Below are positions 23,294-35,240 of a DNA stretch of 64,000 nt, in pieces. Source of the stretch: Helcococcus massiliensis (lineage in GTDB: Bacteria; Bacillota; Clostridia; Tissierellales; Peptoniphilaceae); contig NZ_OGVE01000004.1 of assembly GCF_900258485.1 (NCBI RefSeq), positions 62,001 through 126,000 on the forward strand, read 5' to 3'. The position numbers were made by a program, and so were the translations under genes. The notes below the pieces were generated by a model that had not been told where the DNA came from, did no database searches, and saw nothing but the letters and a program-made list of their open reading frames with translations. Within the stretch, counting starts at the first letter, position 1; each line of letters opens with the position of its first letter.

Positions 23294-24055
23294 TTACTTT
23301 GTTTCAGTTTTGCCTGTAGCCAATCTAAATAATTTTACTAAACCTCTTATTATAACTTCTAGGAAATTACCAACTGTCCAATATAAAACAACACCAGCTG
23401 CAAGACCTCTAAAGATAAAGAACATCATCAATGGCATTACATAAAGCATTGTGTTCATACCTGCTGCTTGTGGGTTAGCTTGGGCCATGTTTTTACTATT
23501 TAACCATGAATAAGCTAATTGTGACAATGAGTTAATCAATGGTAAAGCAAATCCTGTAGGGTCTGCTAAGGATAGGTTTGGTATCCAGAAAAAGTTTTTG
23601 TGAATTTCAGCAAATTTTTCTTTTCCTAAGAAGTAGTCTGCATTGTTGATAACACTCAATAATGCGAATACTATAACCATTTGTATGATAAGCATTAGGC
23701 AAGATTTTCCTGTACCAGCCATCAACTTATTTTCTCTTTGGAATTCCATCAATTTTTGTTGGTAAATTTGTTGGTCATATCCATATTTTTCTTTTAACTT
23801 TTCCATTTCTGGCTGTAACAATCTTTGTTTTTCTGCATTTTTAGCATTTTGTATTGTTGTAGGCAAAGTTATCAACTTGTATAAAAGTCCCATGATTATA
23901 AGGGTAACAGCATAATCTGATATGTGTTGTGTTTGTAAGCCTAAGCCTTCAACTGTGTTAAATATAAATTCAAATAACCTACCCAATAAGCCTGCTAGAA
24001 AATTTGGCTGGTAGTTTGCATTTGTTTTAGCTAATATCATTGATATTTCTATCAT
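23294..24055 (-). CDS. yidC: Membrane protein insertase YidC (Oxa1 family)
   Basis: A 253-residue insertase with about five membrane helices. The core starts at ISDYAVTLIIMGLLYKLITLPTT, with the charged hairpin KLKEKYGYDQQIYQQKLMEFQRE and the C-terminal LPLMMFF-like MPLMMFFIFRGLAAGVVLYW. No clear lipobox signal peptide is seen, unlike Bacillus SpoIIIJ. AGGAGG precedes the ATG. It works with YidD and the Sec machinery to insert membrane proteins. Confidence 0.95.
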   Translation of the reverse strand: MIEISMILAKTNANYQPNFLAGLLGRLFEFIFNTVEGLGLQTQHISDYAVTLIIMGLLYKLITLPTTIQNAKNAEKQRLLQPEMEKLKEKYGYDQQIYQQKLMEFQRENKLMAGTGKSCLMLIIQMVIVFALLSVINNADYFLGKEKFAEIHKNFFWIPNLSLADPTGFALPLINSLSQLAYSWLNSKNMAQANPQAAGMNTMLYVMPLMMFFIFRGLAAGVVLYWTVGNFLEVIIRGLVKLFRLATGKTETK

Positions 24056-24063
24056 TTTTCCTC

Positions 24064-24276
24064 CTAAGATAAGGGATCGTATCCTCCCTTGCTAAAGGGA
24101 TTACATCTCAAAATTCTCCATATAGTAAGAAAAGAAGCTTTTAAAAAGTTGTACTTTTTATAGGCTTCTATTGCGTACTGAGAACATGTAGGTGTGTATT
24201 TACATTTATTTTGTCCAAACATAGGAGAAATAAATTTTCTGTATTGTTCTATTAAAAACACCATTATTTTATTCAT
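24064..24276 (-). CDS. yidD: Membrane protein insertion efficiency factor YidD
   Basis: A 70-residue protein with the family's core: a short amphipathic N-terminus, [10 protein letters not shown], then [14 protein letters not shown] with its conserved Cys, and [15 protein letters not shown]. The start codon overlaps the rnpA stop by one base (TAATG), which indicates coupled translation. Confidence 0.95.
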
Positions 24277-24608
24277 TATTTGCCCTTCTTAGTAATATTT
24301 ATAAGATGGAGTAATGACGATTCTAATTCCTTATAATCATAATCTACTGTATGATATTTAGGTGTAATTATATAGTCTTTATTTTCAAATTTATCCAAAT
24401 TAAGACGAATAATCTCTTTGAGCCTTCGTCTTATTTTATTTCTCTTATTTGCTTTTCCAAATTTTTTTGTAATGGTAAATCCAAATCTAGGAAAGTTAAA
24501 TTCATTGTTAGCAACTAATATCCTATAATCTTTATTATGATATCTCTTTGACTTTTTATATAATCTCTTGAATTCTTCGTTATCTTTTATCCTGTTTTTA
24601 GATTCCAT
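24276..24608 (-). CDS. rnpA: Ribonuclease P protein component
   Basis: A 110-residue basic protein that assists the RNase P RNA in tRNA 5' maturation. The RNR motif region [19 protein letters not shown] (about 48-66) and the N-terminal [14 protein letters not shown] are typical. It starts 15 bases after the rpmH stop in the conserved rpmH-rnpA-yidD-yidC-jag operon. Confidence 0.96.
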
Positions 24609-24623
24609 CTTTCACCTAAATTT

Positions 24624-24758
24624 CTATAGAGATATTTTTTTTCTACCTTTTTGTCTTCTTGCTTTTAAAACTCTTCTTCCGCCAACTGTTGACATTCTCT
24701 TTCTAAAACCGTGTGTTCTAGATCTTTTTCTTCTACTTGGTTGATAAGTTCTTTTCAT
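24624..24758 (-). CDS. rpmH: 50S ribosomal protein L34
   Basis: A 44-residue protein starting [18 protein letters not shown] and ending GRKKISL, with [19 protein letters not shown] in between, matching L34 throughout. AAGGAG lies eight bases before the ATG. First gene of the minus-strand operon leaving the origin, directly behind a consensus promoter. Confidence 0.97.
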
Positions 24759-24811
24759 AATTTTCTCCTTCTAATTTTTTTATCGCAAAATAACGACATA
24801 AATCAATTAAC

Positions 24812-24840
24812 ATTATAGATATTTTGCAAGCTATTGTCAA
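24812..24840 (-). promoter_or_regulatory. Consensus promoter of the rpmH operon
   Basis: A perfect TTGACA (24835-24840), exactly 17 bases, and a perfect TATAAT (24812-24817) on the minus strand, about 54 bases before rpmH. It is the strongest promoter by sequence in the window. Confidence 0.88.
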
Positions 24841-24966
24841 GTTAAGCATAGTAATCAAAGATATAAATCTTATTTTTCTAAACATGTCTTAATCCATCTT
24901 ATTTCAAACTTCTGTTTTGTGAATCGAAAGTAAAATATCCACTTCTGTGGATAAGTCTATTAAAAT

Positions 24967-24995
24967 TTGATGTTTATGCTGTTTATTGCTATAAT
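24967..24995 (+). promoter_or_regulatory. Probable dnaA promoter
   Basis: TTGATG (24967-24972), 17 bases, then a perfect TATAAT (24990-24995). The transcript would start near 25002 and carry a leader of about 240 bases that includes most of the DnaA boxes, the arrangement expected for DnaA autoregulation. Confidence 0.6.
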
Positions 24996-25180
24996 ATTAA
25001 AGGAAATATTAACTTTTCAACAGTTTATTCACAATCTTATCCACTAAGTTGATATCTTGTGGATATTTATTTTGGATAAGTCTTAAAAATCTTAATTTTT
25101 CAAGTCTTTTTCTTGTGAATAATTGTCTATAACTTTGAAATACATTTTTGTGGATAAGTCTATTTTGTTTAACTAGATTC

Positions 25181-25198
25181 TGATGTTTTCAAACATCA
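25181..25198. promoter_or_regulatory. 18-bp dyad in the dnaA leader
   Basis: TGATGTTT-TC-AAACATCA, a perfect 8-bp inverted repeat with a two-base centre, about 47 bases before the dnaA start. The two-base gap is too short for a good RNA loop, so a protein-binding operator seems more likely than a hairpin. No terminator T run follows. Confidence 0.4.
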
Positions 25199-25244
25199 TA
25201 AGTTATGAATTGTCGTGGATAAATTGTTGATATGTGGAGGAAAA

Positions 25245-26696
25245 ATGGATAACTTAAATCAATTGTGGGAAGAAGTTACTAGAAAACTTTTCTTAAACAT
25301 GATTGAAGTACATTATAATACGTGGATTAAACCATTAACTCCCTTGAAAAGAAAAGATTCTATCATTTATTTATATTCTTCTATTGCTTTTGTTGCTAAG
25401 ATAGCTGATCAAAAATATAAAAGTAATATAGAAGATATCTTTAGGGAAATTCTAGGTGAAGATATAAAAGTTGTAATCTTACATCCTAATGATGAACTTT
25501 TCACAGAATTGATAAATGAAGATAAGACAAGTCAGGAAAATCAAGTGCCTGGTCAAACTGAAATGGATGATATCTCAAGGTATATCGAAGATGCAGATAA
25601 AAATATAAACAAAACAACTCCTGCAAACTTCCATTATAAAGATACTCTAAATAAAAAATATACTTTTTCGAATTTTATTAGAGGTAAATCCAATGACCTA
25701 GCTTTGGCAATAGCTACAAATGTTGCTGAAAATCCGGGTACCCTTTACAATCCATTCTATATATATGGGGCTTCAGGACTTGGTAAAACTCACTTGATGC
25801 AGGCTATTGGTCATAAAATTTTAGAAGAAAATCCTTCAGCAAAGGTGATTTATATAACTTCAGAGAATTTTATGAATGAGTTTATATCTTCAATTACAGA
25901 TAGTAAAAATTCTGTATCGAATTCTAAATCTTTCAGGGATAAGTATAGAAATTGCGATGTTTTAATGATTGATGACATCCAATTTATATCTGGTAAAGAA
26001 TCTACACAGGAAGAAATTTTCCATACTTTTAATTCTTTATATAATGCTAAAAAGCAAATCATCTTTACTTCTGATAAACGACCTGAAGAGATAAAAGGCT
26101 TAGAAGAAAGGTTGGTAACTAGATTTTCTGGTGGTATGATTGCTGACATACAAAAGCCAGACTATGAAACAAGAGTTGCTATACTTAAACATAAGATAAA
26201 GATGGAGAAATACACAGTTCCAGATAATGTACTTGCATTCATAGCAGAAAATATAACATCAAATATTAGAAACTTAGAAGGTTCTCTATTGAAGGTAATG
26301 GCTGTTTATAAGCTTAAAAATCCAGCAGGTGCTAGAGATGTTTCGGACGAGGAATTTTTAGAAATAGCTCAACAAGCCTTATCTATAGAAGAAAAGAAAC
26401 AAAAACCTATTACATTGGAAAAAATAAAAGAGGTAGTTGCTGATTATTATAATTTAGAGGTCCAAGACCTTATCAAGCAAAATAGGCAAAAAACTATATC
26501 GGAACCAAGACAAATAGCCATGCACCTTTCAAGGGCTTTAACAACTCTTTCTTTAATAAAGATAGCCAACTCATTTGAAAGGGACCATGCAACTGTCATT
26601 CATGGGGATGATAAAATAAAAGAGATGATTAAAACTAATAGCGAAATGCGAAAAGATGTAGAAAATATAACTGCTATTTTACAAAGTAAGGAATAG
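25245..26696 (+). CDS. dnaA: Chromosomal replication initiator protein DnaA
   Basis: A 483-residue AAA+ initiator. Domain I starts MDNLNQLWEEV, a variable linker spans about 90-135, and the AAA+ domain has Walker A GASGLGKTH and Walker B VLMIDDIQF. Domain IV ends with the DnaA-box-binding signature RDHATVIHG. The ATG at 25245 is preceded by GTGGAGG; a GTG 30 bases earlier lies inside a DnaA box without a proper ribosome site. It is flanked by DnaA boxes on both sides. Confidence 0.98.
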   Translation: MDNLNQLWEEVTRKLFLNMIEVHYNTWIKPLTPLKRKDSIIYLYSSIAFVAKIADQKYKSNIEDIFREILGEDIKVVILHPNDELFTELINEDKTSQENQVPGQTEMDDISRYIEDADKNINKTTPANFHYKDTLNKKYTFSNFIRGKSNDLALAIATNVAENPGTLYNPFYIYGASGLGKTHLMQAIGHKILEENPSAKVIYITSENFMNEFISSITDSKNSVSNSKSFRDKYRNCDVLMIDDIQFISGKESTQEEIFHTFNSLYNAKKQIIFTSDKRPEEIKGLEERLVTRFSGGMIADIQKPDYETRVAILKHKIKMEKYTVPDNVLAFIAENITSNIRNLEGSLLKVMAVYKLKNPAGARDVSDEEFLEIAQQALSIEEKKQKPITLEKIKEVVADYYNLEVQDLIKQNRQKTISEPRQIAMHLSRALTTLSLIKIANSFERDHATVIHGDDKIKEMIKTNSEMRKDVENITAILQSKE

Positions 26697-31235: not shown

Positions 31236-33665
31236 ATGACAGAATTTCAACATTCAAATATAATTCAAAGAGATATAGAACAAGAAATGAGACAGTCTTA
31301 TCTAGACTATTCTATGTCAGTTATTGTTTCAAGAGCATTACCTGATGTAAGAGATGGTCTAAAGCCTGTTCACCGTAGAATTTTATACGGGATGAATGAG
31401 CTAGGTCTCTTATCAAATAAACCACATAGAAAGTCAGCTAGACTAGTCGGTGAAGTAATGGGTAGGTTTCACCCACACGGTGACTCAGCTATTTATGATG
31501 CAGTTGTTAGACTAGCCCAAGACTTTAACACAAGATATCCACTAGTTGATGGGCAAGGTAACTTTGGTTCTATGGACGGTGACGGGGCAGCTGCCCAACG
31601 TTATACCGAAGTAAGGATGACAAAGTTAGCCCAAGAAATGCTAAGAGATATCAATAAAAACACAGTAGATTTCCAACCAAACTTTGATGAGGAAGAGCTT
31701 GAGCCAAAAGTTTTACCATCAAGATTTCCAAACTTATTAGTAAATGGATCAGCTGGTATAGCTGTTGGTATGGCTACAAACATGGCTCCACACAACTTAG
31801 GAGAAGTTATCGACGGTACCATAGCTTATATGGAAGATCCGGAAATTTCTTTTGAAGATTTGATGCAATATATTCCAGGTCCAGATTTTCCAACTGGAGC
31901 TAATATATTAGGTAAAAAGGAAATTATTGAAGCCTATAAAACTGGACGTGGTAAGGTAAGAGTAAGGGCAGAGGCTCATATAGAAGAGTTCAAATCTAAA
32001 CATGTAATTATTGTTACAGAAATACCTTATACAGTTAATAGGTCTAAACTAATCTTAAAGATAGTTGAACTAGTAAGAGATAAGAAAATAGAAGGCATTA
32101 CAGATATCAGAGATGAGTCTAATATAAATGGTACAAGGATTGTAATCGAAACAAAGAGAGATGCAAATCCAAATGTTGTTTTAAATAACTTGTACAAACA
32201 AACACAAATGACTACAACCTTTGGTATCATAAACCTAGCTCTTGTAAATGGTATACCTAAGGAATTGACTTTAAAAGAGTTAATTCACCACTATGTAGAC
32301 CATCAAAAAGAAGTTGTTACAAGACGTACACAATTTGACTTAGACAAGGCAGAGGCAAGAGCTCACATAGTTGAAGGTTTAAGAATCGCCTACGATAATA
32401 TTGAAGAAATCATTAAGATTATTAGATCAAACTATGATGATGAAGAAATCAAGAAAGAATTTGCTAAGAAGTTTGCTTTAACAGATGCCCAATCTCAAGC
32501 TATTTTAGACATGCAATTAAAGAGATTGTCAGGTTTAAATATAGAAAGATTAGAAAATGAATACAAGGAACTTTTAGAAACAATTAAAAATCTAAAGGCT
32601 ATTTTAGCTGATGAAAAACTTTTAATTGGAGTAATAAAAGAAGAACTTTTAGAAATCAAAGAAAAATTTGGTGATGAAAGAAGAACAAAAATAGTTCCAG
32701 CAGAAGGTGACTTTGACGAAGAAGAGTTAATTGAAGAAGAAGAAGTATTGATTACTCTTACAAATCAAGGCTATATAAAGAGACTTCCAGCAGATACCTA
32801 CAAGGTTCAAAATAGGGGTGGTAGAGGAGTTTCAGGTATGACAACAAAGGATGATGACTTTGTTCAAGACCTATTTGTAACATCTACCCACAACAACATA
32901 TTATTCTTCACAAATAAGGGAAGGGTATATGTGAAAAAAGCTTACCAAATAAGAGAAGGTAAGAGAACTTCTAAGGGACAGGCTATTATCAATATCCTAC
33001 CATTACAAGCAGGTGAAAAAGTATCAGCAGTTGTACCAGTGTCTGGTGTAGAAAAGGATACCTACCTAGTACTTGCTACAAAACATGGTAAGATCAAAAA
33101 GACCCATTCTGAAGAATTTGAAAATATCAGAACTAGCGGCATCATAGCTATAAGCTTAGAAGACGATGATGAATTAATAGCTGCAAGAGAAGTTGAAGAT
33201 AATCAACTTGCTGTATCTGTTACTTCCCTAGGTCAATCTATAGTATTTAACTTAGATAGTGTAAGACCAATGGGTAGAAGTGCCAAGGGTGTAAAAATGA
33301 TTAGCCTAAACAAGGAAGACTTTGTTGTAGATTTAAGTATCTATGAAGACCAAGAATACCTATTTACAGTAACTGAAAATGGATATGGTAAAAAGACCCT
33401 ATTTAGACACTACAAGGAACAAAATCGTGGTGGTAAGGGTGTTAGAACCTACAAGATAACAAATAAAACAGGTAATTTAATTGCATCTAAACTTGTGAAT
33501 ATGGATGATGAAATTATGCTAGTTTCAGCTAATGGTCAAGTTATCAGACTTTCAAGCAAAGACATATCTACAGTAGGAAGGGCAACCCAAGGTGTAATCC
33601 TAAAGAGGGTAAAAGAAGATGGTGACAAGATTGTTGCAGCAGCTAAATATATAGCTGAAGAATAG
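31236..33665 (+). CDS. gyrA: DNA gyrase subunit A
   Basis: An 809-residue cleavage subunit. The breakage-reunion domain has SRALPDVRDGLKPVHRRIL, GRFHPHGDSAIYD and the catalytic Tyr in AAAQRYTEVRM. In the resistance-determining region the residues equivalent to Ser83 and Asp87 of Escherichia coli read Asp-Ser-Ala-Ile-Tyr, i.e. an apparently sensitive serine. The C-terminal beta-pinwheel carries QNRGGRGVSGM, the GyrA box that marks gyrase rather than topoisomerase IV. Eight bases separate it from the STAS gene, so the sigma module probably shares the gyrase transcript. Confidence 0.98.
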   Translation: MTEFQHSNIIQRDIEQEMRQSYLDYSMSVIVSRALPDVRDGLKPVHRRILYGMNELGLLSNKPHRKSARLVGEVMGRFHPHGDSAIYDAVVRLAQDFNTRYPLVDGQGNFGSMDGDGAAAQRYTEVRMTKLAQEMLRDINKNTVDFQPNFDEEELEPKVLPSRFPNLLVNGSAGIAVGMATNMAPHNLGEVIDGTIAYMEDPEISFEDLMQYIPGPDFPTGANILGKKEIIEAYKTGRGKVRVRAEAHIEEFKSKHVIIVTEIPYTVNRSKLILKIVELVRDKKIEGITDIRDESNINGTRIVIETKRDANPNVVLNNLYKQTQMTTTFGIINLALVNGIPKELTLKELIHHYVDHQKEVVTRRTQFDLDKAEARAHIVEGLRIAYDNIEEIIKIIRSNYDDEEIKKEFAKKFALTDAQSQAILDMQLKRLSGLNIERLENEYKELLETIKNLKAILADEKLLIGVIKEELLEIKEKFGDERRTKIVPAEGDFDEEELIEEEEVLITLTNQGYIKRLPADTYKVQNRGGRGVSGMTTKDDDFVQDLFVTSTHNNILFFTNKGRVYVKKAYQIREGKRTSKGQAIINILPLQAGEKVSAVVPVSGVEKDTYLVLATKHGKIKKTHSEEFENIRTSGIIAISLEDDDELIAAREVEDNQLAVSVTSLGQSIVFNLDSVRPMGRSAKGVKMISLNKEDFVVDLSIYEDQEYLFTVTENGYGKKTLFRHYKEQNRGGKGVRTYKITNKTGNLIASKLVNMDDEIMLVSANGQVIRLSSKDISTVGRATQGVILKRVKEDGDKIVAAAKYIAEE

Positions 33666-33673
33666 GAGTTAAT

Positions 33674-33982
33674 ATGACTTTCGATATAATTTATAATATT
33701 GGTGATTGCTTAGAAGCTTCACTTATTGGAGATTTAGACATCAATACTGTAGAAGAATTTAAGGATAGTCTAATAAATAAATTTAAGGAAGAAGACAAAA
33801 ACTTGATTATAAATTTAGAATCATTAGATTATATTGATTCTACAGGTCTTGGAGCCTTTATGACAATCTACAAAGAAGTAGAAGATAGGGGCAGAAAACT
33901 TAAAATAATAAATCCCAAGAAAAATATCGTAAAATTATTTAAGATTACTGAATTAGATACTATATTAAATTTGGAGGATTAA
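33674..33982 (+). CDS. Anti-sigma factor antagonist, STAS domain (RsbV/SpoIIAA type)
   Basis: A 102-residue single STAS domain. The conserved phospho-acceptor Ser56 is in the signature YIDSTGLGAFM. In partner switching the unphosphorylated form binds the anti-sigma kinase and frees the sigma factor. It is eight bases after gyrA and directly abuts the next gene, the expected order RsbV-RsbW-SigB. Its kinase partner here looks inactive, so how this serine would be phosphorylated is open. Confidence 0.92.
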   Translation: MTFDIIYNIGDCLEASLIGDLDINTVEEFKDSLINKFKEEDKNLIINLESLDYIDSTGLGAFMTIYKEVEDRGRKLKIINPKKNIVKLFKITELDTILNLED

Positions 33983-34330
33983 ATGGATAAAATAAAATTA
34001 AGTATTCCATCAAATCCCAAATATTTACCTAGCTTAAGACTAACAGCATCTTCTTTAGCAAATACTTTAGAAATGGATATAGACAAGATTGAAGATATAA
34101 AGGTTTTAGTTTCTGAGCTTTATACCTACTTGCTACCATCCTATGATGAAGTAAAGGTCATATTTGAAGTAGATAAGGACAAGTTAAATATAGTTTTTGA
34201 TGATATAGAAGCTTTTAATAAATTAAACACTAGTGATTTAGATTTTGAATTGAAAAAACAAATATTATTAGCCTTGTCTGATGACCTTAAAATTGAAAAA
34301 AATAGCATTACTATAGTTGTAAACAAGTAG
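33983..34330 (+). CDS. Degenerate RsbW/SpoIIAB-like anti-sigma factor
   Basis: A 115-residue protein. Position (between STAS and sigma genes) and N-terminal half (IPSNPKYLPSLRLTASSLA, then DKIEDIKVLVSE) align with RsbW. The ATP-site residues do not. The N-box Asn that chelates magnesium is Tyr49 (SELYTY where RsbW has SEACTN), its His is lost, the DxG of the G1 box reads DDI (73-75), and the glycine-rich G2 lid is absent. It is also about 45 residues shorter than RsbW. No frameshift remnant follows. I infer it can still bind a sigma factor but not phosphorylate the STAS protein. Confidence 0.75.
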   Translation: MDKIKLSIPSNPKYLPSLRLTASSLANTLEMDIDKIEDIKVLVSELYTYLLPSYDEVKVIFEVDKDKLNIVFDDIEAFNKLNTSDLDFELKKQILLALSDDLKIEKNSITIVVNK

Positions 34331-34337
34331 GTCCATA

Positions 34338-35177
34338 ATGGCTAAAGAAAAACAAGTAAACAAGGATATTAAATACTTTGACGAGTTTAAACAACTAGAG
34401 GAACTGAGGCTAAAAGAAGAAAAATTAGAAAAAGCAAAGGGTGAAATAGATAAGGAAGAATTGAACAAAATCAAAAGAGAAATTAAAAGTCTTAGGGACT
34501 ATTTAATTGAAGAAAACCTGTATATTGCAGAGATACTAGCAAAGAAATATACAAATAGGGGGATAGAATATGATGACCTCTTTCAAGTAGCTTCTTTGGG
34601 ACTAGTTTTAGCTGTAGATAGGTTTAATGTCGATAGGGGCTTTGAATTTTCTTCTTTTGCAACACCAACTATAACTGGTGAAATAAAAAGATACTTTAGG
34701 GATAGGGGCTGGACTATAAGGGTTCCAAGGAGAATCCAGGAGTTATCCAAGCAAATAAATAATGCTAAACAAACCCTTAGCCAGAGGTTACAAAGGACTC
34801 CAAGGATCGATGAGATAAGCGATTTATTGGATGTATCTGAAGAAGAGGTTTTAGAAGCCCTAGATGCTTCACAAGTTTATTCGCCACAATCTATAGACAA
34901 AAATTTTGATACTTCTTCTGAAGATAGTGAAATTAGTTTGTCTGATTTACTAGGAGAAGAGGATAAAAATTATGCATTTGTTGACAATATGAACTATATT
35001 ACAGAAGCTATGAAAGATTTTTCGGATGTAGAAAAGAAAATAGTCTATTATAGATATTTCGATAAAATGACCCAGGTAGCTATAGCTGATAAACTAGGTG
35101 TTAGCCAAATGACAGTATCTAGGTTAGAAAAAAAAGTAATTAAAAAATTTAGAAAAGTCTTGGGAATAAAAGCTTAA
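34338..35177 (+). CDS. Alternative sigma-70 factor, SigB/SigF/SigG group
   Basis: A 279-residue sigma factor. After a charged, probably coiled N-terminus (about 1-50), region 2 reads AKKYTNRGIEYDDLFQVASLGLVLAVDRFNVDRGFEFSSFATP. The SigB/F/G-type region 3 follows (RDRGWTIRVPRRIQEL), and region 4 ends with the HTH TQVAIADKLGVSQMTVSRLE. It is last in the gyrA-linked module, before a terminator. In non-spore-forming relatives a general-stress (SigB-like) role is likelier than sporulation, but this is inference. Confidence 0.93.
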   Translation: MAKEKQVNKDIKYFDEFKQLEELRLKEEKLEKAKGEIDKEELNKIKREIKSLRDYLIEENLYIAEILAKKYTNRGIEYDDLFQVASLGLVLAVDRFNVDRGFEFSSFATPTITGEIKRYFRDRGWTIRVPRRIQELSKQINNAKQTLSQRLQRTPRIDEISDLLDVSEEEVLEALDASQVYSPQSIDKNFDTSSEDSEISLSDLLGEEDKNYAFVDNMNYITEAMKDFSDVEKKIVYYRYFDKMTQVAIADKLGVSQMTVSRLEKKVIKKFRKVLGIKA

Positions 35178-35190
35178 TATTAAAATTTAG

Positions 35191-35240
35191 AACTGATTTT
35201 GCAGAGGTATATTTATTTTTGCGAAATCAGTTTTCTTTTT
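35191..35240 (+). terminator. Terminator after the sigma-factor gene
   Basis: A 12-bp stem (35191-35202 with 35221-35232) enclosing an 18-base loop, then TTTTCTTTTT. It ends the recF-gyrB-gyrA-sigma module run. Confidence 0.75.

Follow-up and report, generated by a model that had tools for sequence, protein, structure and literature searches.

A SigB-type partner switch of Clostridia in which the two jobs of RsbW are probably divided between a mini-RsbW and a separate GHKL kinase

A window of 64,000 nucleotides from Helcococcus massiliensis (the whole stretch of DNA that was analysed) carries a three-gene sigma-factor module whose RsbW-like protein has lost the ATP site. We hold it highly likely that this module belongs to a partner switch in which the two jobs of RsbW are divided, with a shortened protein (mini-RsbW) as the anti-sigma factor, a separate GHKL protein as the kinase and a PP2C protein as the phosphatase; the separate, intact kinase very probably does the enzyme job that the brake protein has lost. 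Gene content, synteny, box loss, residues, predicted folds and co-occurrence were computed, and from these we infer phosphorylation, binding, which way the switch turns and what the phosphatase does.

The sigma-factor module at the end of the gyrase operon

The module contains three genes, all on the forward strand. The first (33674..33982) encodes a STAS anti-anti-sigma protein of 102 aa, with the phospho-acceptor Ser56 in the motif YIDSTGLG. The second (33983..34330) encodes mini-RsbW, a GHKL anti-sigma protein of 115 aa that is kinase-dead as judged from its sequence, and the third (34338..35177) a sigma factor of the SigB/SigF/SigG type, of 279 aa (TIGR02980). The original prediction had described a STAS protein with intact Ser56, an RsbW-like protein and a SigB/F/G-type sigma factor at 33674–35177, and all three open reading frames are found there. 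The STAS protein matches PF01740 (7.9e-20, 71 bits), and TIGR00377 also above its cut-off; both expected features, the STAS domain and the phospho-acceptor serine, are present. The sigma factor scores 269 bits against the TIGR02980 SigBFG model (cut-off 234) and stays under the SigB and SigF equivalog cut-offs (195 vs 315 and 191 vs 321 bits, respectively). It is the single SigBFG sigma factor of the genome.

Directly 5′ of the module lies gyrA (31236..33665, + strand), its stop codon separated by 8 bp from the first codon of the STAS gene. gyrA is itself preceded by dnaA-dnaN-recF-gyrB, and the module forms the tail of the origin-proximal gyrase operon. A terminator-like hairpin with a T tract follows the sigma gene (35189..35234, + strand) and would end the operon; its stem is the longest among the sites found by a consensus scan and its position fits, the scan alone being weak (5 sites against 4.3 in shuffled sequence). 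Regarding base composition, the GC skew flips sign at ~24000–25500, between the mnmG-mnmE-jag-yidC side and dnaA. This change of sign indicates that the window contains the replication origin, and therefore that the sigma module is origin-proximal, within the run of gyrase genes.

The arrangement is a constant feature of the Peptoniphilaceae, a family of gut and skin anaerobes. An orthologue of mini-RsbW is found in 129/130 genomes of the family and in 108/108 of those of good quality, and the order gyrA-STAS-mini-sigma is observed in 70/70 loci, drawn from all 39 genera. The STAS serine motif is kept in all 70 of these loci, as well as in 60/60 loci of other clostridial families in which a kinase gene is part of the operon (see below).

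The eroded ATP site of mini-RsbW

The mini-RsbW scores far below the RsbW/SpoIIAB equivalog cut-offs (43, 39 and 23 bits against 145, 155 and 135, the first pair being NF003144) and, at 12.1, under the cut-off of 27.4 for Pfam HATPase_c_2. The RsbW models match residues 2–78, in agreement with the original prediction of an RsbW likeness restricted to the N-terminal half. Aligned with intact RsbW and SpoIIAB, mini-RsbW shows none of the three boxes (N, G1, G2) and no ATP lid: deletions have removed G1 and the lid, and other residues stand in place of the G2 glycines, whereas intact clostridial RsbW retains N, G1 and G2 in 41/41 sequences of the same alignment. Tyr49 at the N-box Asn, Ile75 at the G1 Gly, the missing lid and the length of 115 residues had all been correctly read beforehand.

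The orthologue alignment that had been proposed as a check extends these losses to the family as a whole. G1, G2 and the lid are lost in the Peptoniphilaceae minis, and so is the N-box Asn in nearly all of them; in two of the 70 family loci (L113 and L114) this Asn is still there, with G1 and the lid absent. Since the missing boxes are lost throughout the family, a sequencing error is excluded, and a pseudogene or a decaying gene is likewise ruled out by the family-wide conservation and the intact open reading frames.

Other residues of the protein are strictly kept. Arg19, Asp38 and Glu45 are invariant in the 70 family loci, and an ungapped residue count equates Arg19 with SpoIIAB Arg20, a contact residue for SigF and SpoIIAA in the structural literature, and Glu45 with SpoIIAB Glu46. 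The latter position is therefore invariant in 70/70 ATP-less proteins. In addition, an Asn48, one residue before the N-box position, occurs in 60/70 minis.

The AlphaFold2 model of mini-RsbW is a GHKL (Bergerat) fold devoid of the lid (pLDDT 92.2). The nearest solved structure is that of Bacillus subtilis RsbW (6m37_A; Z 17.4, rmsd 1.4 over 103 residues), and the SpoIIAB structures 1l0o and 1th8 follow with Z 15.6. Sequence and predicted fold together suggest that mini-RsbW would be unable to bind ATP.

A separate GHKL kinase and its distribution in Clostridia

That the genome has no other RsbW was considered and rejected, as an intact GHKL kinase is located outside the window. It is encoded at G000:C7:146147-146524 of the same genome, between a lipoprotein gene and typA, and is the only intact HATPase_c_2 protein above the cut-off (P0004; PF13581, 60.9 bits). 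The open reading frame is listed as 156 aa, and comparison with orthologues gives Met27 as the probable start, hence 130 aa. The N (NELLINCYEHGN), G1 (DEGSG) and G2 (GRGL) boxes are all intact. The protein matches SpoIIAB/RsbW models over the ATP half only, mini-RsbW matching the opposite half, and among solved structures its predicted fold (pLDDT 91.3) most resembles that of SpoIIAB (1th8_A; Z 17.2, rmsd 2.1 over 123 residues). The original prediction, which was framed around a single protein without an ATP site, had named another intact RsbW gene elsewhere, pairing with this STAS protein, as a finding that would refute it; one separate intact GHKL kinase does exist, and that framing misses the conserved two-protein arrangement.

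Across the Peptoniphilaceae, the kinase profile (A2) yields exactly one match, at 91 bits or more, in 129/130 genomes. In the remaining one (G107, 95% complete), mini-RsbW and PP2C are present and no kinase was detected with this profile; mini-RsbW without a detected kinase was also seen in one metagenome-assembled genome (L323). A candidate phosphatase is equally widespread: the H. massiliensis genome has one strong SpoIIE-type PP2C, of 385 aa with a PAS-like N-terminal part, and such a protein is found in 128/130 family genomes, the two misses being genomes 65% and 81% complete. There is also a second, more distant PP2C-type protein in the genome. Finally, the STAS protein of the module is the only one above the PF01740 cut-off, in a count based on PF01740; a member of another STAS family, such as PF13466, could offer the kinase a different substrate.

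The residues conserved in the two GHKL proteins are reciprocal. The position of SpoIIAB Arg20 is Arg in 70/70 Peptoniphilaceae minis, 60/60 minis with an operon kinase, 41/41 intact RsbW and 12/12 SpoIIAB, whereas the kinases show mixed residues there, with no conserved Arg. The kinases in turn keep the N-box Asn (88/88, and 41/41 in intact RsbW), the G1 Asp (85/88) and the second G2 Gly (88/88). This reciprocity indicates that mini-RsbW has kept the sigma-contact surface and the kinase the ATP site.

The kinase gene of Peptoniphilaceae and Tissierellaceae lies away from the operon. When the whole class was searched with the mini alignment and 99 loci were taken from the result, a different situation emerged in other clostridial families, where 60 loci combine a degenerate RsbW with a GHKL kinase gene as the fourth of the operon, on the same strand as the sigma gene and right after it, mostly within 0–200 bp. 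No kinase gene was found nearby in any of the 24 loci with intact RsbW. The remainder comprises four Tissierellaceae loci with an unlinked kinase, family f3 (see below), contig ends and three mini loci (L206, L214 and L267) that were set aside, as the stretch after the sigma gene reads as N and the presence of a kinase cannot be judged. Modules with an intact RsbW also adjoin gyrA in several clostridial families. In the kinase tree, the Peptoniphilaceae and Tissierellaceae kinases are nested as one group among those encoded in operons (support 81), and are separated from RsbW and SpoIIAB with support 100; given this nesting, the linked cases speak for the unlinked one. In family f69 (L257:4007-4432, L259:1884-2429 and L261:1893-2282), G1 of the operon kinases is partly eroded and GRGL is kept.

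Co-occurrence was followed in 50 named genomes collected with the sigma alignment A3, separately from the loci in which the pattern had first been noticed, although a few assemblies are perhaps shared between the two collections. The kinase is present, at 104 bits or more, in 25/26 of those with mini-RsbW and in 1/21 of those with intact RsbW, the others of the latter group reaching at most 78.5 bits; in the three genomes without STAS there is no kinase. The association between mini-RsbW and kinase has a Fisher p of 4e-11 before correction for the tree. After correction it is not significant: genomes of the same state group together on the tree, where only one independent pair is supported, and we therefore claim no significance at that level.

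The sole named genome with both forms, Anaeromonas gelatinilytica (L349), has an intact RsbW plus a stand-alone kinase. It is placed beside Sporosalibacterium faouarense (L325; support 85/87), both being Thermohalobacteraceae of the Tissierellales; the RsbW of S. faouarense lacks N and G1 and retains G2 (GLGL), with the kinase present. These two may be intermediate stages, and together they suggest that the kinase was gained first and that the ATP site of RsbW eroded later. The best sigma tree sets the operon-kinase group apart from the Tissierellales/Peptoniphilaceae group, and a single origin of mini-RsbW is not rejected (AU p 0.478).

In one lineage, family f3 with similar loci in Candidatus Alangreenwoodia (L241, L245, L249, L252, L254, L357, L359 and L370), the order is gyrA-RsbW-like-sigma, with eroded boxes. 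The STAS gene is absent from these loci and no kinase was detected for them, so that STAS and kinase appear to be missing together.

The proposed switch, its alternatives and its relatives

In the proposed switch, mini-RsbW would be a dedicated anti-sigma factor that keeps the RsbW/SpoIIAB surface for the sigma factor and STAS and makes no use of ATP. The stand-alone GHKL kinase (~130 aa) would phosphorylate STAS at Ser56, and the PAS-containing SpoIIE-type PP2C would take the phosphate off upon a signal. With the kinase dominant, STAS would be phosphorylated and unable to bind mini-RsbW, which would then hold the sigma factor; with the phosphatase active, unphosphorylated STAS would take mini-RsbW and the sigma factor would be freed. 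If mini-RsbW cannot bind ATP, its choice of partner would be independent of ATP/ADP. Another kinase was one of the solutions put forward in the original prediction, and this part is supported by the serine (70/70), the kinase (129/130), the PP2C (128/130) and, in 60 mini loci of other families, the kinase gene directly downstream of sigma. The same evidence from serine, kinase, phosphatase and linkage argues against its other proposals, namely simple competition, a constitutive anti-sigma protein or a scaffold.

A first alternative is that Ser56 is phosphorylated by a kinase of another type, for example a Hanks-type Ser/Thr kinase, the GHKL protein acting in a different pathway. The unlinked kinase gene of the Peptoniphilaceae would fit this possibility, as would the second, more distant PP2C-type protein, such proteins often being paired with Hanks kinases. 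We nevertheless regard it as very unlikely, given that the orthologous kinase is the fourth gene of the operon in the 60 mini loci, that the kinase tracks the mini status among gyrA-linked operons, and that the genome has a single STAS protein (PF01740). Phosphorylation-free competition between STAS and the sigma factor for mini-RsbW, which the absent ATP site could be taken to favour, is less probable still, in view of the serine found in all 70 and all 60 loci and of a GHKL kinase and a PP2C conserved in nearly all genomes of the family. The chance that weak nucleotide binding or kinase activity is left in mini-RsbW, by way of a rearranged site, is slighter again: the invariant Glu45 and the common Asn48 could hint at it, but G1 and the lid are deleted, the G2 glycines are replaced, the lid is missing from the predicted fold as well, and such an activity would be superfluous given the separate kinase. 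Least credible of all is a mini-RsbW that holds the sigma factor constitutively, serves as a scaffold or persists as a relic in decay, as the loss of catalytic residues and the degenerate RsbW-sigma pair kept without STAS in family f3 might suggest, since Arg19, Asp38 and Glu45 are invariant in 70/70 loci with intact reading frames and the operon is kept in 39 genera with the STAS serine retained.

The preferred reading, with anti-sigma and kinase jobs on two GHKL proteins, can be compared with several known systems. The STAS-RsbW-sigma order is shared with RsbV-RsbW-SigB of B. subtilis and Clostridioides difficile, and the GHKL fold is closest to 6m37, but there a single protein binds the sigma factor and phosphorylates RsbV, whereas here a second GHKL protein carries the ATP site. 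SpoIIAA-SpoIIAB-SigF is alike in fold, gene order and the Arg20/Glu46 positions; SpoIIAB, however, is ATP-dependent and sporulation-specific, and the sigma factor described here is no SigF equivalog. The Bordetella BtrU-BtrV-BtrW system uses one protein as STAS kinase and another as anti-sigma factor, as is proposed here. This separation is also found in Pseudomonas HsbR-HsbA-FlgM, as described in a review which itself terms BtrW the anti-sigma factor (PMC8256260). The anti-sigma factors of these two systems (such as FlgM) are non-GHKL, in contrast to the clostridial arrangement, where both halves are GHKL proteins.

The closest parallel is the RsbW1/RsbW2-RsfB-SigF system of Mycobacterium smegmatis, where anti-sigma factor and STAS kinase are separate RsbW homologues, as shown biochemically: RsbW1 is an anti-SigF factor without kinase activity, and RsbW2, in which all three boxes (N, G1, G2) are present and which does not bind SigF, is the only RsfB kinase (Oh et al. 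2020, PMC7693655). The STAS mark is presumably reversed by a PP2C (PMC7693655). The division of labour is therefore already known, having been proven in M. smegmatis (PMC7693655). The clostridial form differs in phylum and gene order, in the outright deletion of the lid and boxes (~115 aa), in being near-universal in one family and common across many others, and in having the kinase as the fourth operon gene in most of those clostridial families. What appears to be new here is the different phylum, the deleted ATP site, the four-gene operon in many families, the near-universality in one family and the possible intermediates. No description of the clostridial arrangement was found in the open-access literature, a scope that mostly leaves out subscription journals and does not establish priority.

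According to the textbook view of partner switching, one protein serves as both anti-sigma factor and kinase, and whether it carries ATP or ADP is believed to influence its choice of partner. Since the ATP site is lost in a whole family and in many clostridial lineages, this idea should not apply to mini-RsbW. For these organisms, the name "RsbW, serine kinase" under which such proteins are filed would be wrong. On a broader proposal our judgement is evenly balanced, namely that SigB-type regulation in Clostridia has, in the split switch, a major form that has so far gone undescribed. This form would have arisen, possibly more than once, when a second GHKL kinase was acquired and the ATP site of RsbW itself then eroded (both intact in Anaeromonas, half eroded in Sporosalibacterium and fully eroded in Peptoniphilaceae); sigma binding would no longer depend on whether the anti-sigma factor carries ATP or ADP, and all energy sensing would have moved to the kinase/phosphatase pair. 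The lineages with both forms, the half-eroded forms and the joint absence of STAS and kinase would offer a natural series for a two-function protein being divided.
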